Source: Elusimicrobia bacterium GWA2_56_46 (GTDB lineage Bacteria; Elusimicrobiota; Elusimicrobia; Elusimicrobiales; UBA9959). Taken from it: a stretch of 64,000 bases of DNA. Positions 27,537 through 64,000 of the stretch are shown here, one piece after another. The notes under the pieces were generated by a model. The model saw nothing but the letters and a program-made list of their open reading frames with translations. It made no database searches and was not told where the DNA came from. The DNA is taken from NCBI GenBank assembly GCA_001799575.1, contig MGTT01000020.1, positions 62,001 through 126,000 of the forward strand, in the 5' to 3' direction. A program made the translations under genes and the position numbers. Positions within the stretch are counted from its first letter, which is position 1. Every line of letters starts with the position of its first letter.

Positions 27537-27572
27537 AACGCGCTTAACGGTTTCCCATATAGCCAGCGGGGC

Positions 27573-27592
27573 AAAAGCATTAGATATAATGC
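27573..27592 (-). terminator. Small hairpin with U-tract after the riboswitch
   Basis: GCATTA-TATC-TAATGC followed by TTTT on the minus strand, 16 bases beyond the aptamer and before the preferred start at 27536. It could be the expression platform, though the 6-bp AT-rich stem is weak. Confidence 0.4.
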
Positions 27593-27607
27593 GTTTCATT
27601 ATGTTTT

Positions 27608-27690: not shown

Positions 27691-27727
27691 ACGTATTACA
27701 AATACGTTAACTATTTATTCCCAGTAT

Positions 27728-32085: not shown

Positions 32086-32110
32086 TGGATCCTCCGCTCT
32101 TTCTACCCCA

Positions 32111-32138
32111 ATTATAGTTAATATGGGCGCGAAATCAA
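32111..32138 (-). promoter_or_regulatory. Promoter for the NHL/TPR gene
   Basis: TTGATT (32133-32138, minus strand), 16 bases, TATAAT (32111-32116). The predicted 5' leader is about 20 bases and includes the GGAGG ribosome site. Confidence 0.75.
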
Positions 32139-32268
32139 ATGCGGTATTAGAAATTTTAAATCCCCTTTTAGATTTTCTACTGCCTCCTGCCCCCTTGTAA
32201 CTTATAGAATAAGGGCTGGGGAGGATTTTTTTATCCGAGCCGGATAATGACTTTAAGGAAGCCAATCT

Positions 32269-32949: not shown

Positions 32950-32960
32950 GGGACATAAAA

Positions 32961-33041
32961 CCGTCATCCCGGCAATCTGTTAGCCGGGATCCACTAAGAA
33001 AAGATTTATGGATTCCTGCTAACGGCACGCAGGAATGACAG
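32961..33041. repeat. REP-like double hairpin between sdhC and sdhA
   Basis: CCCGGC/GCCGGG (32968-32988) and TTCCTGC/GCAGGAA (33013-33035) form two small hairpins; GTTAGCCGGGATCCA and TGGATTCCTGCTAAC also pair with each other (13 of 15). The GTCATCCC...GGAATGACAG layout is like dispersed REP/BIME elements of many bacteria. Confidence 0.7.
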
Positions 33042-42750: not shown

Positions 42751-42778
42751 CCTGAAAAATTAAGTTTAATTTTTCAGG
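42751..42778. terminator. Bidirectional terminator between convergent genes
   Basis: CCTGAAAAATTAA and TTAATTTTTCAGG are perfect 13-bp arms around GT. It serves the plus-strand metallophosphoesterase and overlaps the stop end of the minus-strand glycosyltransferase gene. Confidence 0.75.
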
Positions 42779-46762: not shown

Positions 46763-47503
46763 TTATATTGATTTTCTGAAAGCGCCGTCCAGACGGGCTT
46801 CCAGGTCTGACCTCAACTTCCGCGCCCGCGCCGCCAGCGCTACCTCAACTATGCCGGCATTATCGCCCGCTTTCAGGCTCAGGGCGGCCAGTTCTTTCCT
46901 CAGCCGCGCGGTTTCCTCTTCCTGCCGCGTTACGGCGGCCCTCAGTTCGCCCCACAGCGCCTCAAATCCGGACGTACGCCCGCCTACGCGCTCGGTCAGC
47001 TCCGCCGGCAGCCCGGCCAGTTCCCCGCTCAGCCGTTTTATCTCCGCCTCGTGCCTGGCCGAGGCGTCCCCCAGGGCCGCCAAACGGCCCTCCAGTTTTT
47101 CCACCAGCCCGCTTATGCGGCGCTCATTATCGGCGCCGCTTTCCTTTACGGACTTTAAAAGGCCGCCGGTCTCCGCGGCCGCTTTGCGCTGTTCTTCTTC
47201 ACCGCGTTTCAGTTCCGACGTAATAGCCGAGATCTTTTCCTGTATCTCCAGTATTTTCTTTTCCAGTTCCGGAGTTTTCCCGTCCTCTTTCTTTTCCGCC
47301 TGGCGGCGCGCCAGTTCCTCCACTATCTGCGTCTTAAGGATCTGAAGCTGAGACGGGGACGGGGGCGCCTGTGGCGCCGGCTGCGGCGCCGGTCTGGAAG
47401 CGGCCGGCTTCTCTTCACGCGAAGCCTCGCCCCGGCTCACCTTGCCGAGGCTGGAAAGGAAACTGCCGGGCCTGCCCGCGTCTGTCTTACCCTCATCCGG
47501 CAT
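46763..47503 (-). CDS. Coiled-coil protein (module 2, FliH-like position)
   Basis: A 246-residue cytoplasmic protein. The first 75 residues are Pro/Ala-rich, the rest is Glu/Lys/Arg/Ala coiled coil. GGGAGG before the ATG at 47503; its start overlaps the FliF-FliG stop by 11 bases, so translation is coupled. It matches the coiled-coil gene after the first FliF-FliG fusion in position and in having a Pro-rich N-terminus, though much shorter. In flagellar operons fliH follows fliG; I see no clear FliH signature. Confidence 0.75.
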   Translation of the reverse strand: MPDEGKTDAGRPGSFLSSLGKVSRGEASREEKPAASRPAPQPAPQAPPSPSQLQILKTQIVEELARRQAEKKEDGKTPELEKKILEIQEKISAITSELKRGEEEQRKAAAETGGLLKSVKESGADNERRISGLVEKLEGRLAALGDASARHEAEIKRLSGELAGLPAELTERVGGRTSGFEALWGELRAAVTRQEEETARLRKELAALSLKAGDNAGIVEVALAARARKLRSDLEARLDGAFRKSI

Positions 47504-48995
47504 CGCTCTTACCTCCCGGGGCCGCCAGCCGCGGCGCCGCCGCCGGACGGGTGATCTTCCCCTCTTTTATCAGCCTCTCGGCCGACGCCACCAGTTTCTC
47601 CAGCCCGGCCTCGGCGCGCTCGGCGCTGGGCGCGTTGAATCTTGCGTTCTGCTCTATGATCTGCCAGGAACGCTCCGGCATGCCGGTTTTTATCCTGGCC
47701 TTAAAATCGTCCCGCAGGGCCGGCATGGCGTCGCTCCAGTCGGCCGGCGTAAGCGCGGACAGCAGCATCGACAGATCCTTGTCGGACAGCGCCGCCACGT
47801 CGTCGTCCAGCAGCACGCGCGAACGGAGCTCGGCGGCCAGCGCGGGCTCCTCCGCTTCGAAAATTTTTATCATGTCTTTTTTGGCTTTGAGCCCCATCTC
47901 GCCCATGAACTCTATCACCCTGGGCATGCCTCCGACCGCGCCGTTCAGTTTGCGCTCCAGCTCTTCCTTGATCTCCGCCACGATCTCCGGCTCCACAAAA
48001 CGCACCGTGGCCATGTTCAGCATTATCCTGGACGCCAGTTTCCGGTCGAACGCCCCCATCAGCGCTTTGCGCGCGTCCGGCGGAAGGCGGGACACGATAA
48101 CGGCTATGTTGGCCGGCTCTTCCCGCTCAAGCATATACTTCAGAAGGGGCACCTGGCCGACTTTCACGTCGAACACCGCGCCACCCCCGGCTCCGGCCGC
48201 CGCCTCCGGCCCGGCTTCTCCCGCCGGGCCGCCAGGAAGCTCCGCGCCGCCGGCGGCTTCCGGGACCGACGATGTGCGCCCGCTGAAATCCATTTCTATC
48301 TTGTGCGCCTGCTGCGGACCGGCCATCAGGCTGACCGCGCCGGCCAGCCTGATCACGGCGGCCGCCAGGATTATCATCGAAATTATCACTATGACCGAGA
48401 TCAGGCCGTAACGCGCCAGCATATTGATGATCCCGGGGTCGGTCAGCATGGCGCTCCAGACCGGCATGAACGGCGCGCGCACCACGTTGACGCCGTCGCC
48501 GCGGCTCTGATCCAGATTGAGCATCCCGCTCAGCACGACCGCTATGTTCGCGGCCTGCGCGGAACTCACGTCCTTGTCCAGCACCACGTTGACGCTGATC
48601 TTTTTGACCAGAAAAGGCAGGAACACCGTGGGGCTCTGCGGTTTCGGCCGCTCGGTCTCCTGCGGAGCGGTGTAAAAGCCCGGCAGGATCTGCTGCGCGC
48701 CGGGCGGCGGGGACTGCGAGGTGTCCACCCACTGAACCGTCTGCTTCGGCGCGGCAACGGGCTGCGGCTCGCGCGGCTTTTCCACCGCGGCCTCCACCAA
48801 CACGCGCGCCCGGCCCGGACCCAGGATATTCACGATCACTTCCTGCGCCTTGCGCTCAAGCGCCGCCTCGTACTTTATCTTGTCCTCCACGGGGAGGTAA
48901 GCCTGCGCGTGCGACAGGGACGAGAGGCCGGAAGCCCCAAGCCAGAGGCACAAAGCCGCTAAAGACGGAAGTTTTAAATTCTTATGTCTTTCCAT
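47493..48995 (-). CDS. FliF(beta-collar)-FliG fusion protein (module 2)
   Basis: A 500-residue protein. Signal peptide 1-31. Residues about 45-178 match the FliF beta-collar domain, including ILGPGRARVLVEAAVE and the distinctive LDQSRGDGVNVVRAPF before the membrane helix (197-219). After a Gly/Ala-rich linker, residues about 280-480 match FliG: EEPANIAVIVSRLPPDARK, EIVAEIKEELERKL, MIKIFEAEEPALAAELRSRV and a C-terminal helix bundle. Arg441 aligns by eye with a conserved torque-helix arginine; the acidic RDD motif is changed to EQN. There is no C-terminal TPR, unlike the paralogue at 23972. Likely a second, related rotor ring. Confidence 0.82.
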   Translation of the reverse strand: MERHKNLKLPSLAALCLWLGASGLSSLSHAQAYLPVEDKIKYEAALERKAQEVIVNILGPGRARVLVEAAVEKPREPQPVAAPKQTVQWVDTSQSPPPGAQQILPGFYTAPQETERPKPQSPTVFLPFLVKKISVNVVLDKDVSSAQAANIAVVLSGMLNLDQSRGDGVNVVRAPFMPVWSAMLTDPGIINMLARYGLISVIVIISMIILAAAVIRLAGAVSLMAGPQQAHKIEMDFSGRTSSVPEAAGGAELPGGPAGEAGPEAAAGAGGGAVFDVKVGQVPLLKYMLEREEPANIAVIVSRLPPDARKALMGAFDRKLASRIMLNMATVRFVEPEIVAEIKEELERKLNGAVGGMPRVIEFMGEMGLKAKKDMIKIFEAEEPALAAELRSRVLLDDDVAALSDKDLSMLLSALTPADWSDAMPALRDDFKARIKTGMPERSWQIIEQNARFNAPSAERAEAGLEKLVASAERLIKEGKITRPAAAPRLAAPGGKSDAG

Positions 48996-49051: not shown

Positions 49052-49996
49052 TTAAATAAACGTTACCGGAACCTTGAACCAGAAAGTCGAGCCGCGCCCG
49101 AGGCCCCCGCTCTCGGCGGCGATCTCCCCTTTGTGCAGCGAGATTATTTCCCTGGCTATGGACAGGCCGAGTCCCCAGCCCAGTTTGGCCAGCCTGGCGT
49201 CCTTCTGATATTTGGCCTGGTAAAACTTCTCAAAGATCTGCCTGGTCTCGCTGGGGTGTATCCCGACACCGGAGTCTTTGACGTAAACATAGAGCCACCG
49301 TCCGTCGGAACGGCTCCTCATTTCCACCAGGCCGCCTTTCGGGGTGAATTTTATCGCATTATTCAGCAGGTTCTGGAGCACCTGCGAAAGCCGGAATTTG
49401 TCCCCTTTCACCATGATGCCGCGGGAAACCTCGTCATATTTCAGGACTACGCCTTTGTTCTGCGCGTTTATCTCTATGGACGGCAGCAGTTCGTCCACCA
49501 CCTCGTAAAAATCAAACACGACCGGCTCTATCGTAAGCTTGCCGGCCTCGATCATAGCCAGGTCGGTAAGATCCGAGACCAGGCGCTCCAGCCTGGTCAC
49601 CGCGGAGACCATGCGTTTAGACATACCCTTCTGCTTCTCGGTGGCCTCGGCCTGCATGGCAAAAAGCTCGCTGAACCCCTTAATGGCGGCGAGAGGCGTG
49701 CGCACGTCGTGGACTACCATGGAGAGGAATTTGGACTTCATATTATTGAGCTGCGAAAGCTGGGCGTTGGAAAGCTGAAGCTTGCCGGACATCTCATTGA
49801 GCCTGACGTTCCTGCGATGGATCTCGTTTTCGGCCACCGCCAGGCCTCGTGCCAGGGAATCCATGGCCTGGGCGGTCAGTTTTTCGCGCCTGTGGCCCGA
49901 ATGCTCCCGCCGGATCCCCACGGCCTGATAAAAAACCATGAACGAAACCGCCAGCACCAGCAGCACCGCGGGAACAAGAAGGACTAATAATTCCAT
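49052..49996 (-). CDS. Sensor histidine kinase
   Basis: A 314-residue kinase with one N-terminal membrane helix (3-24), a coiled linker, HisKA with His96 (SMVVHDVRTPL) and a HATPase domain (NLLNNAIKF, VKDSGVGI, GWGLGLSIA). There is no extracytoplasmic sensor. It sits between the second PorV-TPR and FliF-FliG genes on the same strand. A cognate regulator is not adjacent; the receiver-PAS protein or stand-alone receivers of the che operon are candidates. Confidence 0.93.
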   Translation of the reverse strand: MELLVLLVPAVLLVLAVSFMVFYQAVGIRREHSGHRREKLTAQAMDSLARGLAVAENEIHRRNVRLNEMSGKLQLSNAQLSQLNNMKSKFLSMVVHDVRTPLAAIKGFSELFAMQAEATEKQKGMSKRMVSAVTRLERLVSDLTDLAMIEAGKLTIEPVVFDFYEVVDELLPSIEINAQNKGVVLKYDEVSRGIMVKGDKFRLSQVLQNLLNNAIKFTPKGGLVEMRSRSDGRWLYVYVKDSGVGIHPSETRQIFEKFYQAKYQKDARLAKLGWGLGLSIAREIISLHKGEIAAESGGLGRGSTFWFKVPVTFI

Positions 49997-50061: not shown

Positions 50062-51681
50062 CTATCTCCAGCCACGCGCGCGCATGAACTCGGCCAGCGA
50101 ACCGTTCTCCGGATCTATCGCCAGCGCGCGGTCGTAGGCCGCCCTGGCACGGGCAAGATCGCCGACCGCGAAATAGGCGGATCCCAGCCTGGTCCAGGCC
50201 AGGGAATTGTTCTCGTCCAGCAGAATTATTTCCTCGCACTCCTTGGCCGCCAGATCGAACTTGCGGGTCTTGAAATTGACGTCGGTTTTGCGCGTCTTCT
50301 CGCGCACCAGCGCGGCGCGCGACAGCACCTCGTCGCTCCTGACCGGGATGCCGGTAAGCCCGCTCATCACTTTCAGGAATTCCCCGAACTCCGGCTCCGT
50401 CATATCCGTGCCGGCCGCCGCGTGGGCGTAGAGCGCGCTCTTGAGATCCTGCGCCTCCATATAAGCCGTAAGCGAGGCCTGCGCCAGCAGGGCCTGTTCG
50501 TCCGCGCGGGCGAACAATTTCCGTTTTTCCGCGTCGTATTTGAGATTCAGTTTCTCCGCCGCGGCCGCGAGCCTCCTGAATTTCACGCCCCACTTCCCGT
50601 CGGTTATCGTCTGGTCCAGCGCCATGGCTTTTTCCATGCTGTCCAGCGCGGCCGAATATTTCCGCTCGCCCAGCTCTTTCAGCGCTAAGGCCTGATAATC
50701 GCGCGCCATAAGCTCCGGCCGCCCCGTCTCCTCCGCCTTCCCCGCGCCGCCCGCGCGCCCGAACTGATAGCCCAGCGACACCTTGTTGGACATCCCCAGC
50801 ACGGGATGGCGGGTAACGGCCACATCCAGGCTGTAGGACTTCATAAATACCGTCCCCAGGCCGAACGAGACCGCGCTCCCCTCGAAGCCCAGGCGCGCCG
50901 CCCCTATCGGCGCGGAGTATTCGGTGCCCACCCTGAATTCCCCGTCGTTATTTAACTCGGCGGCCAGCATTACCCCCCCGATCAGCCTGTACGCCGCCCC
51001 GGCTTTGAGCAAAGGCGGCAGCCTGTCCGAAGTATCCCCCCCGGCCACGCTGACCACGTTGGAGACGGCCAGGCCGAGATCCAGCCGCCCGCGCATAAGC
51101 GATCCGTACTGCGCTCCCAGATCCACCGCAAAGTGCCTGTCGGCGGAATCGGCCAGCCGCCTGTCCAGAAATTTGAACGCGGCGCCGACCGACAGCCTGG
51201 GAAAAAACACCCCTTTCATGCCGGCGGCCGCCGCTAAAGCGGTTTCCGTGTAATCGAACGACGATGTCCGGTTATTGTTCGCGTCGCGCCCCTCCACCAT
51301 GCCGGTGCCGAGCCGCATAAATTCCGCGCCCCACCCGGCCGGCAGCCCTTTGAGATTGCCGGCGTAACCGGCATAGTCGTAATATGCCCCCCCGAACAAC
51401 TCGCTGCGCATAAGCTGGACATTGGGCCGGGACAGCATACCCAGGCCGGCCGGATTATAATAAACCGAGGACGCGTCTTTAGCCACGGCGGTGAACGCGC
51501 CGCCCATAGCTATCGGCCGCGCTCCGGACCCGTAATTAAACAGCTCTCCCGGCCGCCCGCCAACCCCCGCTACGGACAAAGAAGGACTCAAAAGCGTACA
51601 AGCGAAAAGGAATAAAGGCGCAAAAGCGCAAAGCCGCGAAGCCGCGAAGCCCGCGTTAATTTTCCCCGCCTTTTTACCCAT
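50062..51681 (-). CDS. PorV/PorQ-family outer-membrane protein with C-terminal TPRs (module 2)
   Basis: A 539-residue paralogue of the protein at 25965. After a signal peptide (core CAFAPLFLFACTLL) comes the barrel signature GSGARPIAMGGAFTAVAKDA and VYYNPAGLGML; the last 200 residues are TPR-like (WTRLGSAYFAVGDLARARAA). Starts at 51681, 51690 or 51705 are all possible; I prefer 51681, with GAGG just upstream. The signal-peptide region is built of near-repeats of GCGCAAAG/CCGCGAAG. The gene follows the giant surface protein and a 19-copy heptamer array. Confidence 0.83.
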   Translation of the reverse strand: MGKKAGKINAGFAASRLCAFAPLFLFACTLLSPSLSVAGVGGRPGELFNYGSGARPIAMGGAFTAVAKDASSVYYNPAGLGMLSRPNVQLMRSELFGGAYYDYAGYAGNLKGLPAGWGAEFMRLGTGMVEGRDANNNRTSSFDYTETALAAAAGMKGVFFPRLSVGAAFKFLDRRLADSADRHFAVDLGAQYGSLMRGRLDLGLAVSNVVSVAGGDTSDRLPPLLKAGAAYRLIGGVMLAAELNNDGEFRVGTEYSAPIGAARLGFEGSAVSFGLGTVFMKSYSLDVAVTRHPVLGMSNKVSLGYQFGRAGGAGKAEETGRPELMARDYQALALKELGERKYSAALDSMEKAMALDQTITDGKWGVKFRRLAAAAEKLNLKYDAEKRKLFARADEQALLAQASLTAYMEAQDLKSALYAHAAAGTDMTEPEFGEFLKVMSGLTGIPVRSDEVLSRAALVREKTRKTDVNFKTRKFDLAAKECEEIILLDENNSLAWTRLGSAYFAVGDLARARAAYDRALAIDPENGSLAEFMRARGWR

Positions 51682-51700
51682 GATCCTCATATAGCACACT

Positions 51701-51836
51701 CTCATCCCTCATCCCTCATCCCTCATCCCTCATCCCTCATCCCTCATCCCTCATCCCTCATCCCTCATCCCTCATCCCTCATCCCTCATCCCTCATCCCT
51801 CATCCCTCATCCCTCATCCCTCATCCCTCATCCCTC
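51701..51836. repeat. 19-copy heptamer tandem array (CTCATCC)n
   Basis: 136 bases of almost perfect CTCATCC units between the stop of the giant protein and the start of the second PorV-TPR gene. The sense strand of the flanking genes reads GGGATGA repeatedly, so G3 runs are spaced by four bases throughout: a long G-quadruplex-type motif. Copy number should vary between strains. Confidence 0.95.
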
Positions 51837-51840: not shown

Positions 51841-54800
51841 CTAATGTATCACCCCTATCTTCAGCTTCTCCGTGGTTCCGCCCGTCTCCAGCACGCCTAT
51901 GTAGATACCCTTTGAAACTTTTTTGCCGGACGAATCGGCGCCGTCCCACTTCATGTCGTGAACCGTGTCCGCCGCGGAGTCCAGCGACCTCACTTTCCTG
52001 CCGTAAATATCGTAGATCTTCAGGGAAGCCGCGCCGGCGGAGTTAAGCTGGAAATGTATGGTGGCCACGCCCTTCCTCGAATCGAACGGGTTCGGATACA
52101 CGGACAGATCCGAGACCGCGGCCAGCGCCGCCAGCAGCAGATCCACTTTCAGCGGCTCCGTGGGTGTTCCTTCCAGGCCTGCCCCGCTGACGGGGGTTAT
52201 GCGGTAATAATAAGTGCCCGGAACGCGGCTGATCACCGCCGCCGTTTTAAACCTGGCCGCGGCGCGGGAAACTCCGGACGGGCCGTTCCCTATTATAATG
52301 GTCCGCGAATCGGAGATACTGATCTGCGTCCAGACGGGACTATCCGCTTTGCGCTCCTCCACGCGGTAATAGGTCACGCCGGACGGGCCCGCGCTGGCGG
52401 GATCCCAGTTGAGTATCACCGTCTCGGCTTCGCGCGCGGCGCTGACACCCGCCAGTTGCGGGATCATCGAATCCACCGTGAACTGCCGGCATACGATGTC
52501 GCTGTAATAGTCGCCGAGCGAATTTTTGGTTCTGACGCACAAATAGTAGCCTCCCGCCTGCAGCAGCTCCAGGCCCGTGCCCCAGACGTCCCTGGAAAGT
52601 CCGCCGCTCTTCCAGTCGGCGGCCGGCGTGGCTCCGTTCGCGGGCGCGCCGCCGACGTAATAATATACCTGTTCCAGGCTGCCGGTCATCACCGTAGACT
52701 CCCAGTTGAAGCGCATGCGCGACTTGTAAGCGTTGTAGGCCGCCGCCTCCGCGCCGAACAGCTCTCCGTTAGCCTTGTAAAGCTGGAGAACCGGGGGCGT
52801 GGGCACGCGCGGATCGCGTATCGTGCCGACCGTCGTGGCCAGCGCTGAAAACGCCTCGGCCTTGTCCGACCCGGCCAGCAGGATCCCGCTCTCGTCGGAG
52901 ATCACAAGGCCCGCGGTGCCGCCGATAACGGCCGACGCCGCTATATCCAGCGTGAGGAAATAATCCGCCGGCGCCGCGCCTAACGCGCCCGGCGCGGACA
53001 GGGTGAGCGTCAGCAGCGAAGACGCGAAATTTCCGGACGCCGCCAGGCTGTCGGAGTCCGCGCTGAACACCCCGTTCCCGTCGGTATCGCGGTACAATTT
53101 AACGGTTCCGAGATCCGACAGCGCGGCGCTGCCGTTGAGGCTCAGCTTCAGACCGGTCAGTTCGGCGCTGTCCTGCGTCGTCCAGAGCCGGAGCTTCGCC
53201 ATAGCGCTGTTAGTCCTGCCCTGGTAGAGAGAAGTAGAGGCCAGATCCGTGAACGCCAGCTTAACCGTGTCGGAAGAATCGGAGATCACGCCCGCTATCG
53301 AGAAACTGACCGGCGAAACGGCCAGCGCAACCAGATCCGGCGCCACCACGCTGAAGTACCCTGCCGACGCCGTCAGCCCCAGGGTGGCGCCCACCGTCGC
53401 CTGCGACGAAAGATCCACCACCACGAAATATGATTTATCCGCCGTCCCGACGCTCTGCGGCGGCGACACCAGCAGATTGACCGCGCCGTTGGACAGGCCG
53501 GAAGCCGACGCCGCCAGCGTATCGCCCGCCTGGAACGCCCCGTCGGCGTTCGAATCGTAATACAGCCGTATCCCCGTTATATCGGCGTCCACGGCCGTCC
53601 CCGTCTTATCAAACCGCACTCCCGCCAGCTCGGCGGAATTGGACAGCGCGTGAAGCGTCAGCCGGCCTATCGCCTTTGACACGTCGCCCTGTTTAACCGC
53701 AGGCGCCAGGTCGGTATGCGCTATCTCCAGCGTGTCCACCGTGGCGTCTATAACAGCCTGCGCGCTGTTGAAAGCGAACACGCCCGCCGGGGAACTGACC
53801 GTATCGGGCGCCGACACGCCCAGATAACTGGCCGCCGGCAGGCTTATCCCGAATGTCGCGCCCAGGGTAGCGGAGGCCGAGATATCGGCGGAGATATAAT
53901 AGAGCTTAGTCTGCGGGTATGTGACCGTCTGCCCCGCCAGGTTTAGCGACGACAGCCCGGCCGTGAACACGCCGCTGGACACAAAGATCTCCTGCGCCGG
54001 CCCGCCCCAGGCCCCGTTGCCGTCGTCGCGGTACAAATTGAGCGCCGAAACGCAGGCGTCCGTGCACGTGCCGGTAAGCAGCGCGTCCAGCCTGTTCCAG
54101 TTCACGCTGAACGCCGTGGCCGAGATGGTGGCCACCGCCACCAGCGCCGACACGTCGCCCTGCGTCACCTGGCTGTTCAGCCTGCTCTCGAACGCAGGCA
54201 CAAGAGCGCTGGGCGGCTCGGCCACCGCCACGCTCCCGGAGGTGAACGGCAGGCGTCCGGCCTCGATACCGTCGGGCGCTGCCAGCGATATTGCCGTAAA
54301 GGTCAACGCCAGCGTGTCGTTCACCACCGCCGAGGGCGACAGATCTATCACCGCGTAATACGTTTTGCTGGAGACGGACAGCTCTCTGGCCGCCCCCGTG
54401 ACCGGCAGGGAGACGGAACCGCCGCTGAACACGCCGGAACTCACCAGTTCCCCGGAATCCATCACGCCGTTCACGTTCACGTCCCAGTATAGCGCCACGC
54501 GCGAGACATCCGCGTCCAGGCCGCCCGCGCGCACCAGCGAGACCGAGTTCATAAGCGCCGTGGACTGGTTCGTGCGCAGCTGCAGCCGCTCCATCAAGAT
54601 GCCCTGCGCGCCCGCCTGCGCCGAAGCGGGCGCCAGGCTCAGCGTGGACACCAGCACCGAGGCCGTCACTTTCTCCAGCGTCACTTCGTTGGAAATTATG
54701 GGGAACGTGCTGGTCAGCAGGTCGGGCGCCAGCACGCTGAAATCGGAGGTGCCGTTTATCCCCACCCGCAGCGTGCGCCCCGGCACGGCCGCGCCGGCCA

Positions 54801-57800
54801 CATCCGCCGCTATGAAATAAATGGAACTGGACACGTCCACGCTTTGCAGCGTATTGAACGAGACCGTCGCCGTACCGCCCGAGAACGCATAATTGCCGCT
54901 TACCAGCGTGTCGGCCGCGGCGTTGAAGGTCCCGTTGCCGTCGTCGCGGAACAGCTTGACCGCCGAGATATCGGCATCCTGCGCCGTGCCTGCCTCGTAA
55001 AGCGTGACAGCGGACAGCTCGGCCGCGTTGCGGTTGGTGAACATTTTAAGCGCCAGCACCGGCACATTGACGGCCGCCTGGTACGCCGCCGCCGCCCCTG
55101 CCGTAACGTCCGGCGTGACGACCACTACGTCTATCGTGGGCGTTATGGCAGCCAGGCTGGAATAGATCGGATACTGCGCCGCCACGGTCGTATTCGCCCC
55201 GGCCGCCGTTATATACCCCGATTGCAGCCCCACCCGGGCCAGACTGGACGTATTGGCGTTCGGCGCTATGCCTACGACTATAAAATACGTCTTCGTGGAG
55301 GTATTCAGGATGCTCTCCGAGAGCGACCACGTTACCAGGCCGGAGCTGAACACCCCCGACGCCACGCGCACGTCGGTGCCCGTGTCGAATACGCCCAGCG
55401 GCGCATTGTCGCGGTACAGCGAGACCGAAGAGTAATCCGCGTCCAGGCTGGTCGTGGAGCGCTGCACTTTCAGCAGATTCCATACCGCGCTGCCGATATC
55501 AGCCGTCAGATCCAGCCGCTCCAGCGCGTGCGTCGTGCCCTGCTCGACCGTTAACACCCCCTGATCCACGGCGGTCACCAGCAGATTATTCGGCGGCTCC
55601 GAGACCTGTACGCTGGGCGAGGCGAACGGCAGACGTCCGGGCTCTATGCTGTCGCCGGAGCCGCCCAGAGCGATGGACTGGAAATTAAGCCCCAGATACG
55701 CGCCCGGGGGCGCCGACGCGGCTATGCCCATCGTCACCAGGTAAACCTTGGACTCGGTCGTGAGCGCGCCGGACGCGCCGGTAAACGGCAGCGTCAGAGC
55801 GCCGCCGCTGAATACGCCGGAAGAGACCAGTTCCCCGGCGGCCGGCAGAGCGTCGCCGTTGGCGTCCAGATACAGGGCCACGCCGCTTATATAAGAATCC
55901 GCGCCGCCGTTGCGGACCAGCGAAACGCTGTTCATAACCGCCGCGGACTGGCTGGTGTGCACGCCCAGCCGCTCCATCAGGATATCCTGCGTTCCCGGCT
56001 GCGCCGACGCCGGGGCCGTGCTGGACGTGGAGATGAGCACCACGGCCGGAGCCTTTTCCAGGGTGATCAGATTGCCCGTTATCGGGAAGGTGCTGGTCAG
56101 CGTATCGGGCGCTATGACGCTGAACGCGGAAGCGCCGCTTACGCGCGCGCCCAGTGTGCGGCCCGGGACGGCCGCCGCGGCTATCTCGGCCGCTATAAAA
56201 TAGACCGAGCTGGACACGGTTATGCTCTGGAGAGTATTGAACGAGACGGAGGCCGTGCCCGCCGAAAAAGCGTAATTGCCGCTGACAAGCGTGTCGCTGG
56301 ACGCGTCCAGCACATTGTCGCCGTCGTCGAGGTAGATCTTCAGCGCCGCGATATCGCCGTCCTGCGCGCTGCCGGCCTGGGTTATATTGACGCCCGAGAC
56401 GCTGCCCCCGTTCCGGTCGGTGAACATTTTAAGCGCCAGCACCGGCACGTTAACCGCCGACTGATACGCCGAGGCCGGCGCCACCGAGACGTCGGGCGTG
56501 ACTACGATAGTATCCACCGTCGCCGTTATCTGCGCGAAGCTGGAGATCATGGGGAAGACCGCGCCTATGGCGGTGGCGTCGCTGGCCGCGTCTATATAGC
56601 CGGTTTGCAGCTTCACCCCGGCCTGCGCCGACGTATTGGCTGACGGAGAGATACCGGCCGCTATGAAATAGGTCTTCGTAGAGGTGTTCAGTATGGTCTC
56701 GGAGAGCGACCAGGTGACCAGGCCCGCGCTGAACGTCCCCGACGCCACGCGCGTATCGGTCGCCGGGTCGAACGCCCCCAGCGGCGCGTTATCGCGGTAA
56801 AGCGAGATAGAGGCGTAATCGGCGTCCGCGCTGGAACTGGAACGCTGCACTTTCAGCAGGCTCCACAACGCGCTGCCGGAATCGGAGGTAAGTTCCAGTT
56901 TCTCAAGGGCGCGCAGCGCGCCCTGCTCCACGGTCGTCACGCCCAGATCCGTGCCGGTGACCAGCAGCGTATTCGGCGGATCGCTGACTGACGGCAGGCC
57001 CGAATCGGCCGGGGAAACGCTCATCGACACAACGTCCGGCATACCCGCCATCACCGCGAACGAACCGGCCGACTGCACCCGCACTCCCACCGTCGCGCCC
57101 AGCGGCGCGTTGGCCGCGAGATCCAGCGCCACAAAGTACACGTCGCTTATCACGGTGCGCGTGGAGGAAGCGGCAAGATTTATGACCGCCTGGCCGGACG
57201 AGAACCCGTCCACGCCGGAAGAGACCAGGCTGTCGCCGGAACCCGCGTCCAGTGTCCCGTTCTGGTTGTCGTCGCGGTACACTTTGACGTACGGAACATA
57301 GGCGTCGGCCAGCGTACCCAGCTTGTCCAGCGTCAGCGAGTTCAGATACACCCGGTCGCGCGCCGCGGCCAGCGTCAGCCGCAGGAACGCGAGATTATCG
57401 GTCCCGCGCGACACGTTGGGCGACGGCGCCTGGTTCAGCCACGTCACGTCCAGCGTATCCGCCAGCTTGGTTATCGTGCTCAGGCTGGAGCTGAACGGCT
57501 GGGTATTCAGAGTGTATATACTGTTCGGGCTGGCCAGGGAAGCCGTGCTCGTTATCGTTATGCCTACGCTGTTGCCGGGCCAGGACAGGTAATTGTCGGC
57601 GCAGGTGAGCGTCACAAAATAGGTGGCGGCTGAATTCAGCGTCTCGTTCAGGGTCAGCGCGGCTTCGGACGCCGCGAACACGCCCCACGCGCCGGAGATC
57701 TCCGGGTCATTGCCGGCTTCATACGCTCCGTTGGAATTGCCGTCGCGGTGCACGGCCACGCGCGAGAGATCGGCGTCCGAGCCGGTGCCCTGCCGCCTCA

Positions 57801-60800
57801 CGGTCAGGCCGCTCCATAACGCGCCAGCGCCGTTCGGCGTAAGCGTCAATTTTGCGTACGACAGCTTCTGGCCCTGCACTATCGTAGTGTGCGGCGTATC
57901 GGTGACAAGCGCGCTTATTATCAGCGGCACCGTGCGCGTGGAACCCGCGTAGGTATAATCGGTATAGACATAAGAACCGTTCCGCGCTATCACGCGCGCG
58001 TAATAGGTCGTATTGGGCGACAGGCCGGTGAATGTGGCGTAATTGACCGCGTACATCGCCTGCGTGGACACAGTCGTCAGGTTGAACCCGGACGTGGTGG
58101 ACAGCTCGCAGAAGTATTGCGTGGCTGCCGGGTTGTCCGGGGCCGTCCAATCCACGCGCAGCGCCGATACGTCCACATTATTGAACACGGCCGCGGCCGG
58201 CTTTATGGCGCGGGTGTGCTTATCCGCCATGTTGGAGTACGACTCACCCAAGGCGTTATACGCCGAGACCCTGTAAGAGTAGTAGCTGTTTGTGGACAGC
58301 GACACTGCCGGGTAGGACACGGCATCCGCGCCTAAGGTGGCTATCAAACCCTCGTTCTGATAGACGCGGAAACCAAGCTCGTCATTTGAGTTATCGGTCC
58401 AGGACAGATCCAGCTTATAACCTGAAACAGCGTCCGGATAGCCGATCGTCAAACCGCTCGGCGCGGCCACGCCGGGCATGGTCTCGGTGGACGGCAGGAC
58501 GGCCCAGCCGGTTTCAAGCGGCGCGGCGTTATAATTGCGCGCTTTGGCCCTGAAATAATAAGTCGTGGCGGCCGACAGTACCGTGAAGTTATATGAGTTT
58601 ATCGTCGTCCAGCCGGAATCGGCCGTGTCATAGACGTAATCCGACGATGACGAGCGCTGCACCAGATACTCCGTGCCGTCCGGATTTCCGCTCTTGGACC
58701 AGTTCACCTGTACCGAATTGGCCGTGCGCGTGTACTGCCCCAGCGGGCCGCCCGGCGGCGCCGCGCGCGTGTACTCGCTGTAGAGCGGCACATTGCCGGT
58801 TTCCACGTACGAACTGTTGCGCGCGCGCACACGGATGTAATACCGCGCGTTGGGATCAAGACCGGTGTAACTCTGGCTCGTTATATCAACGCGCCAACTG
58901 GAGCTGGCCAGGATGACCGAGAAATCGGACTGCGCGGACAGCTCGCTTAGATACTGGACGCCCGCCGCGTTGTTCATATTCCATTTAGCCGTTATGCTGC
59001 TTGAGTATATCTCGGGCGTTACGCCTACCGGCGCGTTGGAACGCGTCTGCGTGGACGGCAGCACATACCACGACGCGCCGGCCGGGGATTCAATATTGGC
59101 CTGGTTGCGCGCTTTGATGCGGAAATAATAAGTAGCGTTCGTCTGCAGCGTGTCGAATACCCGCGAACTGATCCCCACCTGCCAGCTCGTATCCACGTCC
59201 ACCACGCCGAAGCCGACATCGTCGCGCGCGGAACGCTGCACCCGGTACTGAGTATAGCCGGGATTGGTTTTAACATCCCAGCGCAGCGTCAGGCTGGAGG
59301 CGTATACGTCATAAGGCGTAAGCGGGTCGCCGGGGATCTCGGCCAGCGTAAGCGCGGGGCCGGCGGGCATAGCGGTGGACGTGGCCACGCCGCTCGCGTT
59401 CACCGCTTTGATACGGAAATAATACGACGAATCGGGCGTCAGCGAAGTGATAACGGCAGATACGGCCAGCGTCGTGCTGGACAGGATCGCCGCGTTGAAG
59501 TCGGACGAGGTGGACAACTCGGCCACGTACGACGTGCCCGCCGAATTGCCGGAACCCGACCAGCCCACCGAGGCCGACGACGCCCACACCTGGTTGAAAA
59601 CAGTTGAAGCGGGCGCCGCGGACAACGTAGGCGTGGCGCCCAGCACCGAATAATCCGTCCACACACCCAGGTTATTGGCGGCTTTTACACGCGCGTAATA
59701 CGTTATATTGGCCGATAAGCCGGACAGCGTAGCGTACGCGTTATAGGTCTGCGACGACGCCGCTATAATACCGAAGCCGGGAGCAGACGACAACTGCACC
59801 AGATACAACGCGCCCGGGCCGTTATACCCGCCCTGCGCGCTCCCGGACGACCACGCAAATGTCAACGCGTCCGCATAAGCCGCCGTAAACGAGGCCGGGG
59901 CCGTCGCCATAGCCAATGTATAAGTGGACACCGTCACCGATTCAGACGATTCGTAACCGCCATAGTTGCGCGCCTTGGCTTTGAACGCATACTGCGTATT
60001 CGGCGTCAGCCCGCCGAATACAGAGGTGACACCGGGGTCGTAGGCTTCGTTGGCGGCCAGCGGGGAGCCGCCGCCGTCCCTGCCGCCTATCGCATACAAC
60101 TTGCCGTCCACGACAGCGGCAGCCAGGTAGGCGCGCGCCGTGGATATAGGCGACTTTGTGGCCCAACTATTGGTCACCGGGTCATATTCCTCATTCTTAC
60201 TAACCACGGAGCCGTTGTCACCGCCGACCACGTATATCTTGCCGCCGATAGCGGCCGCGGCCAGAAGATTTCGCGCCGTCGGCATAGCTGTTTTGGCTAT
60301 CCAGCCATTGGACGCAGGGTCGTATTCTTCGTTCAGCGCGCATATGCCGCCGCCCGCGTCACGGCCGCCGATCCAATACACCTTGCCGCCTATCTCCGCG
60401 CCGGCATGAAGAACACGCGCCGCCGGCATATCGGCCTTGGCCGCCCAGGTATCGGTTACGGGGTCATACGCCTCGTTGGCGCTCAGCTTCAACGCGCCGT
60501 CATCGCCTCCGGTCGCATATAACTTCCCACCCGCGGATATGGCGGCCAGGGCTTCGCGCGCGGTCGGCATCGCGGCTTTTGCCGACCATGTGTTCGCCGC
60601 GGGGTCGTATGCCTCATTATTATTCAGCGCGGCCGAACCGCTCCAGCCGCCTACCGCGTACAGCTTGCCGCCGGATGAAGCGGCGCTCAACGCCCAGCGC
60701 GCGGTCGGCATAGCCGCCTTCGCCGACCAGACATTAGCGACGGGGTCATATTCTTCGTTCGCGGCGCTGGCGCCGGAAACATAGCCGCCTACCCCATAGA

Positions 60801-63800
60801 TCTTCCCGCCCACCGCGGCCGCGGCCAGGTAATAACGCGCCGCCGACATAGCGGTCTTGCCGGCCCAAACATTGCCGCCGGTGTGCCAGCCCGCATATGC
60901 GCCGTCTTTGGCCACGTTCACGCCGGATTGGCCCTGCTCCAGATTGGCGAACACAGGCGCGTAGGCTGACGCGGTTATCGCGGCCGTGCTTACCTCGTCA
61001 AATACGATATTAGACGGGATAGGCGCGGCCGTGCGCGTGGAGATAACGGCCGAATAATACGTGTCGGAATCGGTGGACACTTTTACCTTGAAGTAATAGC
61101 TCGTGTTGTCCAGCACGGAGTACGTCGCCGTCTGCTGGCCGACCGAACCCATGGCGGACGACACCGTTACGCTGAAATCGGGAACCGTCGAGATGACCAT
61201 CCACGGCGCTTCGGTCGCGGGCGTGTCCAGTTCCCACGACACACGCGCCAACGTGCTCGACACATACACCCATTGCACATTGGACGGCAGCTTCATAGCG
61301 GTAGTGGTCGAGCCCAGCGGCGTATAATCGCCGGACACGCCCAGCGTATTGAGACCGCGCACGCGGAAATAATAGAGCTTCTCGGCGCTAAGGCCGGTTA
61401 GATCGGCTGTCAGTCCGGCCGTATTGGACGAGCCCCAGACCGGGATAAACGCGTTATTGGTGGACGCCTGCACATCATAGCGCGCGCCGGATCCGTTGAA
61501 GCCTCCTGCTGAAGTGCCCGAAGACCACTGTACGCGCACATGGTTCCATTCATTCTGAACGAACGTGATCCCGGACGCGGAAACAGTGGCCACCGCCAGG
61601 GTATAAGTCGAGACGGTTACAGACTCGCCGGTTTCGGCCCCATTGACGTTCCGCGCCTTTGCTTTAAACGAATACTGCGTATTCGGCGCCAGGCCGCCGA
61701 ATACAGTCGCCACACCGGGGTCGTAGGCTTCGTTTATGTTACTTCCACCCACAGCGTACAGTTTCCCGCCAACCAGTGCGGCACCCAAACCGTACCGCGC
61801 GGTCGGCAGCACTGTCCTTACCGCCCAAGTATTCGCCGTTGGATCATACTCTTCGTTTACGTTGAGGTTAGGTCCGTTACCCCCGCCCACCGCGTACAAC
61901 TTGCCTCCGACCGCGGCGGCGGCCAGATAGGCCCGCGCGGTCGGCATTACAGCTTTTGCCGCCCACGTATTTGAAACTGGATCATAAACTTCGTTGGTAT
62001 TAAGGTATCCCCCGTTATTCCCGCCCACTGCGTACACCTTGCCGCTGATTGCCGCGGCGGCCAAAGACATTCGCGCGGTCGGCATTGCCGCTTTCGCCGC
62101 CCACGTATTCGCCGCGGGATCGTACTCTTGGTTTACATTCAGGTCGGAACCGTTGCTTCCGCCTATTGCGTACAGCTTGCCTCCGATCGCGGCGGCGCCA
62201 AAACCCTCGCGCGCGGTCGGCATTACAGCTTTTGCCGCCCACGTATTCGCAACTGGATCGTATGCTTCGTTGATATTCTTGAAAGAACCGTCATATCCGC
62301 CTACGGCGTACAGCTTGCCGTCTATCGCGGCGACGGCCATACCATACCGCGCCGTCGGCATTACGGTTTTTGATACCCACGTGTTCGCCGCAGGGTCGTA
62401 CTCTTCATTCGTGTTTTTGTAACCCGCATTATCCCCGCCGATAGCGTACAACTTGCCGCCAATCACGGCGACCGCCAACTGTGCCCGCGCGGTCGGCATC
62501 ACGGCTTTTACCGTCCAGCTATCACCGTAAACATGCCACCCGGCGTATGTCCCGTCTTTTGCTATATTTGTGGCCGATAAACCCTGGTTAAGTTTTGTGA
62601 AGCCAGGCGTGGCCGCGTACGCCGAGGCCGTTATCGCCGCGGTGCTTATCTCGTCGAACACTATATTTGTGGGCGTCTCAATGCCGCTGAGCGTGGAACC
62701 GATTACCGCATAATCGGTCCACACATTGACCGCGTTGGCCGCCTTGACGCGGAAATAATAGGTGGTTTGCGGCAACGTTATCCCGGATATCGCGGCGGAC
62801 AGATCAGCCGTCTGCGCCGACCCGGCTATGGCGGCGAAATTGGAACTGCTGGAAGCCTGGACAAAATACGTGGCGCCGGGGCCGTTGAAGCCGATGGAAG
62901 CCGACCCGGACGACCAGGCAACCGTTATACTGCCGTCATTCACAGCCGGGAACGTGGCCGGCCCGGAAGCCACCGCTAAGGTGTAGGTGGAGACGGCAAC
63001 AGATTCGCCGGTCTCAGCCCCGTTGATACCGCGCGCCTTGGCCTTAAATGAATACTGCGTATTAGGCGCCAGGCCGCCGAATACAGCGGCCACGCCGGGG
63101 TCGTAGGATTCGTTTTGGTTTTGCCCCCCGGTTGCTCCTCCCAACGCGTACAGCTTGCCGCCAACGGAGGCGGCGGCAAACCGAAACCACACGGTTGGAT
63201 TCGCAGCTTTTATCGCCCACGTATTCGCCGCGGGATCGTACTCTTCTGTATCGGCACCCACAGCGTACAGCTTGCCTCCAATGGCCGGGGCAGCGAAATA
63301 AGAGTGCGTGGTCGGCATCGCCGCTTTTGTCCCCCACGTATTGGCCGCGGGATTGTATTCTTCGTTTACCAACCCTGTTCCATCATCCCCGCCCAGCGCA
63401 TACAGTTTACCTCCAACCGCAGCGGCGGCAAAATAGCGCCGGGGGGTCGGCATCGCCGTCTTTGACCCCCAGGTATTCACCGCAGGATCGTATTCTTCGT
63501 TCGTGTTCAGATTAGAGCCGTTGTTTCCACCCACCGCGTATAACTTACCACCCAAAGCTACAGTGGCCAAACCGGTCCGTGCGGTGGGCATCACCGCTTT
63601 TGTCACCCATATATTAACCACGGGGTCGTACTCCTCATTTGTGCCCATGTAAGATACACCGTTATTTCCGCCCACAGCGTAGAGTTTGCCTCCAATTGCC
63701 GCAGCGGCCAAAGCATACCGCGCGGTCGGCATCACCGCTTTTATCGCCCACGTATTAGCCGCAGGATCGTACTCTTCGTTTTTGTTCAGCGGGCCGTACC

Positions 63801-64000
63801 CGCCCACCGCGTACAGCTTACCGCCAACAACGGCAACGGCCAAATCATACCGCGCCGTAGGCATCACCGCTTTTACCGTCCAGCTATCGCCATAAATATG
63901 CCACCCGGCGTATGTCCCGTCTTTTGCTATATTTGTGGCCGATAAACCCTGGTTAAGTTTTGTAAACCCGGGCGTGGCCGCGTACGCCGAGGCCGTTATC
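51841..64000 (-). CDS. Giant Kelch/FN3 surface protein with FlgD-like C-terminal domain (5' end outside window)
   Basis: At least 4,052 residues; the frame is open to the right edge, and the sequence at 63868-64000 is in frame and repeats an internal module, so the true start lies outside. From the visible N-terminus: three Kelch propeller blocks (about 20 repeats of the GGKLYAVGG...NEEYDPAANTW type) alternating with FN3-like domains; a run of FN3 domains; then about twelve beta-sandwich modules of about 150 residues with acidic turns (LYRDDNGNG..D-like) that may bind calcium; two more FN3-like domains; and a last 85-residue Ig-like domain (VYPNPFDSRKGVATIHF, YDIYGRKVRSL, GKKVSKGIYIGVL) of the FlgD/type-IX-sorting type. 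Probably an exported adhesin, with the adjacent PorV-TPR as partner. No cysteine-rich or lipid-anchor motif is evident. Confidence 0.88.
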   Translation of the reverse strand, partial: ITASAYAATPGFTKLNQGLSATNIAKDGTYAGWHIYGDSWTVKAVMPTARYDLAVAVVGGKLYAVGGYGPLNKNEEYDPAANTWAIKAVMPTARYALAAAAIGGKLYAVGGNNGVSYMGTNEEYDPVVNIWVTKAVMPTARTGLATVALGGKLYAVGGNNGSNLNTNEEYDPAVNTWGSKTAMPTPRRYFAAAAVGGKLYALGGDDGTGLVNEEYNPAANTWGTKAAMPTTHSYFAAPAIGGKLYAVGADTEEYDPAANTWAIKAANPTVWFRFAAASVGGKLYALGGATGGQNQNESYDPGVAAVFGGLAPNTQYSFKAKARGINGAETGESVAVSTYTLAVASGPATFPAVNDGSITVAWSSGSASIGFNGPGATYFVQASSSSNFAAIAGSAQTADLSAAISGITLPQTTYYFRVKAANAVNVWTDYAVIGSTLSGIETPTNIVFDEISTAAITASAYAATPGFTKLNQGLSATNIAKDGTYAGWHVYGDSWTVKAVMPTARAQLAVAVIGGKLYAIGGDNAGYKNTNEEYDPAANTWVSKTVMPTARYGMAVAAIDGKLYAVGGYDGSFKNINEAYDPVANTWAAKAVMPTAREGFGAAAIGGKLYAIGGSNGSDLNVNQEYDPAANTWAAKAAMPTARMSLAAAAISGKVYAVGGNNGGYLNTNEVYDPVSNTWAAKAVMPTARAYLAAAAVGGKLYAVGGGNGPNLNVNEEYDPTANTWAVRTVLPTARYGLGAALVGGKLYAVGGSNINEAYDPGVATVFGGLAPNTQYSFKAKARNVNGAETGESVTVSTYTLAVATVSASGITFVQNEWNHVRVQWSSGTSAGGFNGSGARYDVQASTNNAFIPVWGSSNTAGLTADLTGLSAEKLYYFRVRGLNTLGVSGDYTPLGSTTTAMKLPSNVQWVYVSSTLARVSWELDTPATEAPWMVISTVPDFSVTVSSAMGSVGQQTATYSVLDNTSYYFKVKVSTDSDTYYSAVISTRTAAPIPSNIVFDEVSTAAITASAYAPVFANLEQGQSGVNVAKDGAYAGWHTGGNVWAGKTAMSAARYYLAAAAVGGKIYGVGGYVSGASAANEEYDPVANVWSAKAAMPTARWALSAASSGGKLYAVGGWSGSAALNNNEAYDPAANTWSAKAAMPTAREALAAISAGGKLYATGGDDGALKLSANEAYDPVTDTWAAKADMPAARVLHAGAEIGGKVYWIGGRDAGGGICALNEEYDPASNGWIAKTAMPTARNLLAAAAIGGKIYVVGGDNGSVVSKNEEYDPVTNSWATKSPISTARAYLAAAVVDGKLYAIGGRDGGGSPLAANEAYDPGVTSVFGGLTPNTQYAFKAKARNYGGYESSESVTVSTYTLAMATAPASFTAAYADALTFAWSSGSAQGGYNGPGALYLVQLSSAPGFGIIAASSQTYNAYATLSGLSANITYYARVKAANNLGVWTDYSVLGATPTLSAAPASTVFNQVWASSASVGWSGSGNSAGTSYVAELSTSSDFNAAILSSTTLAVSAVITSLTPDSSYYFRIKAVNASGVATSTAMPAGPALTLAEIPGDPLTPYDVYASSLTLRWDVKTNPGYTQYRVQRSARDDVGFGVVDVDTSWQVGISSRVFDTLQTNATYYFRIKARNQANIESPAGASWYVLPSTQTRSNAPVGVTPEIYSSSITAKWNMNNAAGVQYLSELSAQSDFSVILASSSWRVDITSQSYTGLDPNARYYIRVRARNSSYVETGNVPLYSEYTRAAPPGGPLGQYTRTANSVQVNWSKSGNPDGTEYLVQRSSSSDYVYDTADSGWTTINSYNFTVLSAATTYYFRAKARNYNAAPLETGWAVLPSTETMPGVAAPSGLTIGYPDAVSGYKLDLSWTDNSNDELGFRVYQNEGLIATLGADAVSYPAVSLSTNSYYSYRVSAYNALGESYSNMADKHTRAIKPAAAVFNNVDVSALRVDWTAPDNPAATQYFCELSTTSGFNLTTVSTQAMYAVNYATFTGLSPNTTYYARVIARNGSYVYTDYTYAGSTRTVPLIISALVTDTPHTTIVQGQKLSYAKLTLTPNGAGALWSGLTVRRQGTGSDADLSRVAVHRDGNSNGAYEAGNDPEISGAWGVFAASEAALTLNETLNSAATYFVTLTCADNYLSWPGNSVGITITSTASLASPNSIYTLNTQPFSSSLSTITKLADTLDVTWLNQAPSPNVSRGTDNLAFLRLTLAAARDRVYLNSLTLDKLGTLADAYVPYVKVYRDDNQNGTLDAGSGDSLVSSGVDGFSSGQAVINLAASSTRTVISDVYFVALDLAANAPLGATVGVRVQSAGSFAVMAGMPDVVSMSVSPADSGLPSVSDPPNTLLVTGTDLGVTTVEQGALRALEKLELTSDSGSALWSLLKVQRSSSSADADYASISLYRDNAPLGAFDPATDTRVASGTFSAGLVTWSLSETILNTSTKTYFIAAGISPSANTSAQAGVKLQTGYIDAASDATAIGAVFPMISSFAQITATVDTIVVTPDVSVAPASAYQSAVNVPVLALKMFTDRNGGSVSGVNITQAGSAQDGDIAALKIYLDDGDNVLDASSDTLVSGNYAFSAGTASVSFNTLQSITVSSSVYFIAAEIAAAAVPGRTLGARVSGASAFSVIAPDTLTSTFPITGNLITLEKAPAVVLISTSSTAPASAQPGTQDILMERLGVHTSQSAAVMNSVSLVRNGGADSYISGVALYLDANGDALPAAGELVSSGVFSGGALTLPFTGASGALTTESKVYLVTMGIAASAPPGAYLGLNFQSIALGGSGDSIEPGRLPFASPSVQVSEPPNNLLVTAVDQGVLTVEQGTTHALERLDLTADIGSAVWNLLKVQRSTTSLDADYSSVSLYRDNAPLGVFDTGTDVRVASGVFSSGLVTWSLSESILNTSTKTYFIVVGIAPNANTSSLARVGLQSGYITAAGANTTVAAQYPIYSSLAAITPTIDVVVVTPDVTAGAAAAYQAAVNVPVLALKMFTNRNAAELSAVTLYEAGTAQDADISAVKLFRDDGNGTFNAAADTLVSGNYAFSGGTATVSFNTLQSVDVSSSIYFIAADVAGAAVPGRTLRVGINGTSDFSVLAPDLLTSTFPIISNEVTLEKVTASVLVSTLSLAPASAQAGAQGILMERLQLRTNQSTALMNSVSLVRAGGLDADVSRVALYWDVNVNGVMDSGELVSSGVFSGGSVSLPVTGAARELSVSSKTYYAVIDLSPSAVVNDTLALTFTAISLAAPDGIEAGRLPFTSGSVAVAEPPSALVPAFESRLNSQVTQGDVSALVAVATISATAFSVNWNRLDALLTGTCTDACVSALNLYRDDGNGAWGGPAQEIFVSSGVFTAGLSSLNLAGQTVTYPQTKLYYISADISASATLGATFGISLPAASYLGVSAPDTVSSPAGVFAFNSAQAVIDATVDTLEIAHTDLAPAVKQGDVSKAIGRLTLHALSNSAELAGVRFDKTGTAVDADITGIRLYYDSNADGAFQAGDTLAASASGLSNGAVNLLVSPPQSVGTADKSYFVVVDLSSQATVGATLGLTASAGYFSVVAPDLVALAVSPVSFSIAGVISDSSDTVKLAFTDLASTSLYQGRTNSAMAKLRLWTTQDSAELTGLKLSLNGSAALSDLGTVKLYRDTDGNGVFSADSDSLAASGNFASSLLTLTLSAPGALGAAPADYFLTLDIAASAVIGGTAGLVISDESGILLAGSDKAEAFSALATTVGTIRDPRVPTPPVLQLYKANGELFGAEAAAYNAYKSRMRFNWESTVMTGSLEQVYYYVGGAPANGATPAADWKSGGLSRDVWGTGLELLQAGGYYLCVRTKNSLGDYYSDIVCRQFTVDSMIPQLAGVSAAREAETVILNWDPASAGPSGVTYYRVEERKADSPVWTQISISDSRTIIIGNGPSGVSRAAARFKTAAVISRVPGTYYYRITPVSGAGLEGTPTEPLKVDLLLAALAAVSDLSVYPNPFDSRKGVATIHFQLNSAGAASLKIYDIYGRKVRSLDSAADTVHDMKWDGADSSGKKVSKGIYIGVLETGGTTEKLKIGVIH
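62506..64000. repeat. In-frame 1,365-bp repeat within the giant gene
   Basis: The stretch at 62506-62640 recurs almost identically at 63871-64000, an offset of 1,365 bp or 455 codons. It covers the linker IAKDGTYAGWH and the first strands of the Kelch block. A third, more divergent module edge is near 60850-61010. Confidence 0.8.

Follow-up and report, generated by a model that had tools for sequence, protein, structure and literature searches.

Introduction

The genes described here resemble parts of three known systems. With the type IX secretion system (T9SS) of Bacteroidota, our Elusimicrobiota genome shares a SprA homologue, PorV-family barrels and C-terminal domains (CTDs) like those of type A. 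Unlike in Bacteroidota, GldL, GldM and the catalytic domain of PorU were not found, many PorV paralogues stand in tandem with cargo genes, and the phylum lies outside FCB. According to the introduction of one paper, no T9SS genes occur outside the FCB phyla (PMC11285876). The nearest precedent for a pairing of cargo with carrier, given in PMC9143113, belongs to type B, where SprB goes together with SprF and PG1035 goes together with PorP. The second system, Flavobacterium gliding (SprB, SprF, GldLM), has in common with our locus a giant adhesin, an adjoining outer-membrane carrier and a presumed drive by an ion motor of the MotAB class. Here, in contrast, the carrier is of the PorV type rather than PorP/SprF, and the motor genes are MotAB together with a fusion of FliF and FliG.

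The third system is the flagellar MS-ring, C-ring and MotAB, which shares the RBM3 domain of FliF, the middle and C-terminal domains of FliG, flagellar-type MotA and MotB, and che genes. Our locus departs from the flagellum in having RBM3 and FliG in one chain, in having no FliG of canonical length among the genome's FliG_C frames and in its linkage to outer-membrane adhesin carriers. Flagellar genes are absent in Elusimicrobia according to a figure legend (PMC7031533), and our bacterium is apparently without a flagellum; the frames of its genome with FlgD_ig matches over the cut-off all have at least 402 residues. In a passage of a 2025 survey, 11% of non-motile species are said to have rotor proteins but no filaments, and another function is raised as a possibility (PMC12199754). 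Elusimicrobiota are also rich in huge proteins, as stated in a passage of PMC11573180, and the size class of the protein with which we begin is thus already on record for the phylum, although that passage names neither a secretion route nor partner genes.

A giant surface protein beside a PorV-type carrier

The window, that is, the whole stretch of 64,000 nucleotides analysed here, had been predicted to encode a giant protein of Kelch, FN3 and acidic-turn modules ending in an Ig-like domain, with a PorV-type barrel carrying TPRs as the next gene. The features at this end of the window are the following.

51841-64000, minus strand: giant surface protein, in-window part, with signal peptide, Kelch/FN3 blocks, acidic-turn beta modules and CTD
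51841-52173, minus strand: CTD of the giant, T9SS type A/FlgD_ig-like (YPNPFD...GIYIGVL...GVIH), from TIGR04183 and FlgD_ig
50062-51705, minus strand: PorV-family barrel with TPRs at its C-terminus, presumed to be the giant's cognate partner (PorV_fam 83.4 bits, cut-off 90)
49052-49996, minus strand: histidine kinase (HisKA, HATPase_c) between the giant's PorV and the fusion; 8 of the 20 class II loci from other genomes encode a relative
47493-48995, minus strand: FliF-RBM3/TM/FliG(M-C) fusion of class II, 500 residues, from Pfam and predicted fold
46763-47503, minus strand: coiled-coil protein after the class II fusion, weakly similar to the one behind the fusion on contig C2

Inside the window the giant gene (51841-63999, minus strand) runs for 4,052 codons without a stop and is open at the window's edge. 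When flanking contig DNA was added, it proved to be a single frame of 6,998 codons that ends outside the window, at coordinate 72642 of the window's frame (51841-72642 in total); counted from the first start with a signal-peptide-like N-terminus, the protein has 6,933 residues. Collapse of identical repeats is unlikely, because the gene holds no exact repeat of 100 nt or more. The prediction of a giant modular protein was confirmed by this open frame, by Pfam (Kelch, E 1e-148; fn3, E 1e-44) and by NCBIfam TIGR04183. In addition, modules with the repeat 'YRDDGNG' are seen in the translation, and Pfam matches to them are almost nil. Comparison of the C-terminus with T9SS CTD and FlgD_ig profiles, the check proposed with the original prediction, gave scores above both cut-offs: 29.7 bits against 23 for TIGR04183, the T9SS type A sorting domain, and 30.3 bits against 27 for Pfam FlgD_ig. 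The score for Pfam Por_Secre_tail was below the cut-off (23.2 bits against 27). The PorV-type barrel with TPRs is likewise present as the next gene, just outside the stretch 51841-64000 that the original prediction covered, albeit with a sub-cut-off PorV_fam score. A sequence search of the PDB with the PorV protein listed matches that cover its TPR part, except for one that is weak and unrelated; an AlphaFold model of it (two sequences, mean pLDDT 39.7) was set aside as useless.

The same genome has a second giant frame, of 17,613 codons (contig C11, 39360-92201, loci L034-L036), whose CTD closely resembles that of the window's giant. We dropped the idea that this frame is linked to PorV or a riboswitch: no PorV gene directly follows it, and the riboswitch nearby sits behind other frames, so that no link was drawn. 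Small CTD-bearing frames of about 180-200 residues occur in several genomes of the family, for example at 44121-44366 of contig C27. Downstream of the giant's PorV, at 42766-45531 on the minus strand, lies a family 2 glycosyltransferase (GT2) fused to a TMEM260-like O-mannosyltransferase with TPRs, which could glycosylate the giant adhesin.

CTD-PorV tandems and a SprA homologue

The genome, a metagenome-assembled one of 2.66 Mb and 98.8% completeness, has 14 frames above the PorV_fam cut-off and 17 CTD matches. At 12 of its 20 PorV loci a CTD-type frame lies directly upstream of PorV; in four of these tandems (L013, L016, L023, L026) the CTD was judged by eye from the C-terminal sequence. CTD matches were obtained in 78 genomes of the phylum, and the best listed match from each of 54 other genomes, picked from the listed part, was taken as a sample. 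The CTD profile used at these loci and at the FliG loci described below was built or seeded from the 12 tandems. PorV followed the CTD gene directly, on the same strand and within 0.8 kb, in 25 of the 54, and preceded it in 3, a bias of direction with P 2.7e-5. Distances among CTDs correlate with those among PorV proteins in the 12 own pairs (r 0.72) and in the 25 pairs from other genomes (r 0.75), and none of 20,000 shuffles reached either value. The correlation shows, at the level of sequence, CTD-PorV pairs that evolve as units; it is no proof that the two bind each other, because duplication of linked genes alone would yield the same result.

Absence of any T9SS-like translocon from the genome had been named as the finding that would speak against such a pathway. 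On the contrary, the genome encodes a SprA homologue, matched by TIGR04189 in three stretches (E 3.1e-41) with 140.7 bits, where the equivalog cut-off is 200. Its best segments are mostly 60-77% identical to records from named Elusimicrobia, with four at 30-34%, which places the genome in Elusimicrobiota. Pfam gives only a weak CBM_11 match to this protein, and a PDB sequence search with it returned nothing relevant. A match to the DUF3800-V RNA family lies about 5 kb from the SprA gene (L045, 2598-2695, contig C9). Profiles for three further T9SS components that had been proposed for a search alongside sprA, namely GldM, GldL and PorU, gave no credible match in the genome. GldM had no match at E 10. 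For GldL the best value was E 0.02, at 14.9 bits where 68.3 are needed, and 10 of 14 control genomes match as well. The 17 matches to PorU all fall from residue 857 onward of a profile of 1095, none over the cut-off, and the catalytic domain was thus not found.

Across the phylum, the SprA homologue is present in 105 of 119 Elusimicrobiota genomes; the remaining 14 all belong to one family (f9), and most of them are small. Every one of the 105 SprA-positive genomes has PorV-family matches, as do 7 of the 14 SprA-negative ones; for CTD matches the counts are 76 of the 105 and 2 of the 14. This co-occurrence is confounded by lineage and genome reduction. The original prediction of a secretion-adhesion pair is thus well supported by SprA, the CTD-PorV tandems and their co-divergence, whereas the searches for GldL, GldM and PorU do not bear out a complete T9SS of the Bacteroidota type. 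Judged by their sequences, the giant and its PorV are new examples of a kind already known, in a phylum from which that kind has been said to be absent.

Fusions of FliF-like and FliG domains

The class II fusion is encoded two genes downstream of the giant's PorV, after the histidine kinase. A second fusion, of class I, lies further along the window:

23972-25909, minus strand: FliF-like/TM/FliG(M-C)/TPR fusion of class I, 645 residues (FliG_C, E 1.1e-23)

The FliG part of this 645-residue protein matches FliG of T. maritima at E 5.2e-29. There are five FliG_C frames in the genome, all of 491-646 residues, and none has the canonical FliG length of about 330-370; among the 105 FliG_C rows listed for the phylum, we counted by eye five of 343-408 residues. 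Four of the five frames in the genome share a cluster with PorV, and a single genome has up to five copies of the fusion.

FliG_C and FliG_M are present in 21/21 class I and 21/21 class II fusions. The Pfam model YscJ_FliF_C matches 16 of the 21 class II proteins and 4 of the 21 in class I with E values no higher than 0.01, and the N-terminal domains of the two classes are homologous (hhalign probability 99.8); nothing of FliF beyond RBM3 was seen in the fusions. In 17 of the 21 class I fusions and 15 of the 21 in class II, hydropathy indicates a TM helix between the two parts and a hydrophobic stretch at the N-terminus. In an AlphaFold model of the 500-residue fusion (two sequences as input, mean pLDDT 55.6), the predicted fold of residues 32-175 matches FliF RBM3 with Z 13.5 and 2.0 Å rmsd over 93 residues, a margin of about 3.5 over unrelated OsmC/Ohr rows, which reach Z 10. 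Residues 272-485 of the model match FliG with Z of about 15, and the predicted FliG_C domain alone superimposes at 1.3 Å over 88 residues. The FliG chain of a MotAB-FliG complex was among the fold matches.

The torque arginine of FliG (about R281 in E. coli) is lost in 21/21 class I and 20/21 class II fusions (41 of 42 altogether), and the acidic residue at about D288 is kept in all 21 of class I. With its torque charges only partly kept, the FliG of the fusions would not be a plain copy of that in the flagellar motor.

A second gene set with a riboswitch, chemotaxis genes and MotAB

The class I fusion belongs to a second set of genes, about 22 kb further along the minus strand from the gene of the 500-residue fusion. 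Its order is c-di-GMP-I riboswitch, PorV-TPR, 645-residue fusion, long coiled coil, CheR, CheB, CheA, methyl-accepting chemotaxis protein (MCP), MotA and MotB.

27607-27685, minus strand: c-di-GMP-I riboswitch ahead of the second PorV-TPR gene (Rfam RF01051, 61 bits)
25965-27692, minus strand: second PorV-family barrel with TPRs (PorV_fam 107 bits, over the cut-off of 90)
21497-23833, minus strand: long coiled-coil protein; 17 of the 20 class I loci encode a relative
15854-19912, minus strand: CheA, CheB and CheR genes, none seen in the other 20 class I loci
9132-10412, minus strand: methyl-accepting chemotaxis protein
8070-8924, minus strand: MotA of the flagellar stator type (MotA/PomA chains, E 6e-51)
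7161-7952, minus strand: MotB with plug, OmpA-like domain and the conserved channel Asp
6397-7164, minus strand: protein of 255 residues without a family assignment; at 9 of the 20 class I loci MotB is followed by a relative

The true start of the second PorV-TPR gene is likely near 27599, just past the riboswitch. Against the MotP/MotA models the window's MotA reaches E 5e-71, below their equivalog cut-offs. The genome has three MotA-size genes with fusions; two of them adjoin a fusion and the window's own lies about 15 kb away.

No CTD gene lies directly upstream of this class I operon in our genome. In relatives a CTD gene lies upstream of the PorV-TPR gene that the riboswitch leads; here that place is taken by a protein of 1,460 residues with an NHL propeller and TPRs (28585-32967, minus strand). 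Between the chemotaxis genes and MotA lies a protein of the FtsA/MreB/PilM-like actin family (12766-14988, minus strand; FtsA model, E 1.5e-30), which is a possible cytoskeletal link.

Conservation of the linked cluster in Elusimicrobiota

FliG_C is found in 41 of the 119 genomes of the phylum, all 41 with SprA and CTDs. We sampled 40 FliG loci from 105 rows (counted by eye), namely 20 of the 39 rows with frames of at least 600 residues and 20 shorter ones. In other genomes PorV lies directly upstream of the fusion at 20 of 20 class I loci, and a CTD frame, by our reading of the layout, upstream of that PorV at 18 of 20. A c-di-GMP riboswitch precedes the operon on the same strand at 18 of the 20 loci and ends 1.7-2.5 kb before the fusion frame. 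MotA-MotB occurs within the fetched stretch at 11 of the 20, and the other nine have no MotA within about 7 kb. At class II loci, PorV was found in 11 of 20 and MotA in 16 of 20; the PorV figure is a profile count, used because the broader 'PorV-TPR' matches of this class probably include TPR-only ones. In contrast, 40 control loci (SprA loci of named Elusimicrobia, 609 kb) contained no match to MotA, MotB, FliG or PorV.

All 27 MotA proteins compared keep the channel residues, which are two prolines and one threonine, and most MotB proteins keep the channel Asp. At six class II loci (L185, L186, L188, L191, L192 and L193) two consecutive MotB genes follow MotA, and the product of the second carries Asn where the channel Asp would stand. 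This pattern points to an axle formed as a heterodimer, one of its two ion sites being dead.

Discussion

The presence of a giant adhesin, its carrier and flagellar-type genes together suggests a gliding or surface-adhesion machine that has not yet been described. Our main reading, to which we assign a probability of roughly 55%, is that a flagellar-type rotor and stator act, without a flagellum, on CTD adhesins held by PorV, with gliding as the probable role. The CTDs, PorV, SprA, MotAB, the FliF-RBM3/FliG fusion, the riboswitch and the synteny can be read from sequence or predicted fold; we infer ring assembly, torque, coupling to PorV and motility. Against this reading count the loss of the FliG torque arginine, the nine class I loci with no MotA close by, our own class I operon with no CTD gene directly upstream, the che genes that other class I loci do not share, the mean pLDDT of 55.6 for the fusion model, the sub-cut-off scores of SprA and the giant's PorV, and the fact that linked duplication could explain the co-divergence.

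On this reading the giant would be cargo of a T9SS-like pathway, with Sec export as the first step. Its CTD would be recognised by the PorV-type barrel encoded beside the cargo gene, and the cargo would pass through the SprA homologue to be displayed at the surface, held by the same barrel. In about one third of the phylum's genomes, ours included, the carriers would also belong to an ion-driven machine, in which inner-membrane MotAB stators push on the FliG domains of a ring built from FliF-RBM3/FliG fusion subunits. The periplasmic RBM3 ring would pass the force to the outer-membrane PorV-TPR protein that holds the adhesin's CTD, and the adhesin would grip a surface outside. The operon would be switched by c-di-GMP and, in our genome, probably tuned by chemotaxis proteins. 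The likeliest role would be gliding or another controlled movement of adhesins, with no flagellum.

Alternatively, FliF/FliG-MotAB might power secretion of the giant CTD cargo through SprA in the place of GldLM, leaving the cell unmoved. GldL and GldM were indeed not found in the genome, the fusions sit among CTD and PorV genes, every FliG-positive genome has SprA and CTDs, and GldLM of Flavobacterium drives both secretion and gliding, as stated in a passage of PMC8986121. We nevertheless regard this explanation as unlikely. FliG is lacking in 64 of the 105 SprA-positive genomes, and 35 of these 64 carry CTD proteins; export thus seems to continue without FliG, and secretion alone seems independent of it. 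For this reason we favour movement of adhesins over a role in secretion. Moreover, many of the genome's own CTD-PorV pairs lie away from FliG genes, and the links to c-di-GMP and che genes point to motility.

It is also conceivable, if decidedly doubtful, that only the secretion pair is real, and that FliG and MotAB are left over from a flagellum since lost, or do something unrelated, and owe their place beside PorV to history. Torque residues have been partly lost, and rotor genes without filament genes are on record for the 11% of non-motile species in the survey passage cited above (PMC12199754). Yet the PorV order at 20 of 20 loci, riboswitches at 18 of 20, intact MotA channel residues and as many as five fusion copies per genome would be unlikely for remnants, and the RBM3-TM-FliG layout appears rebuilt rather than decayed.

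The histidine kinase that stands between PorV and the fusion in our genome and its relatives, together with control by a riboswitch, would suit a sensor of surface contact, in which binding of the adhesin tugs on a ring of fusion subunits and thereby feeds signals to the kinase and to c-di-GMP, without propulsion. This we hold to be very improbable, as the conserved ion-channel residues of the stator suggest use of energy. That the MotAB genes are part of a Zorya-type defence system is scarcely credible: MotB does match the PADLOC models of ZorB (E 5e-19), but MotA, both fusions and the neighbours submitted match no PADLOC model, and the match of MotA to flagellar MotA/MotP/PomA spans almost the whole protein.

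We therefore return to adhesin movement by a flagellar-type rotor and stator. We see an even chance that these genes encode a third kind of gliding or adhesin-moving machine, in a phylum outside FCB, in which MotAB drives a minimal one-chain FliF-RBM3+FliG rotor that TPR-bearing PorV barrels link to T9SS-type giant adhesins, with control by c-di-GMP. No title or abstract listed in searches of open-access literature describes the cluster, and the unit of RBM3-FliG, MotAB and PorV is, as far as we found, undescribed. The linked MotAB and FliF/FliG genes, which were not part of the original prediction, are what gives the comparison with gliding its interest.

SprA, PorV and CTDs span Elusimicrobiota, against the FCB-only view printed in the introduction of PMC11285876. 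The cluster offers a concrete and testable candidate function for the filament-less rotor proteins noted in the survey passage of PMC12199754. If our reading is true, parts of the flagellar rotor and stator would have found a new use as the drive of surface adhesins, and the job done by GldLM in Flavobacterium would have been solved a second, separate way.
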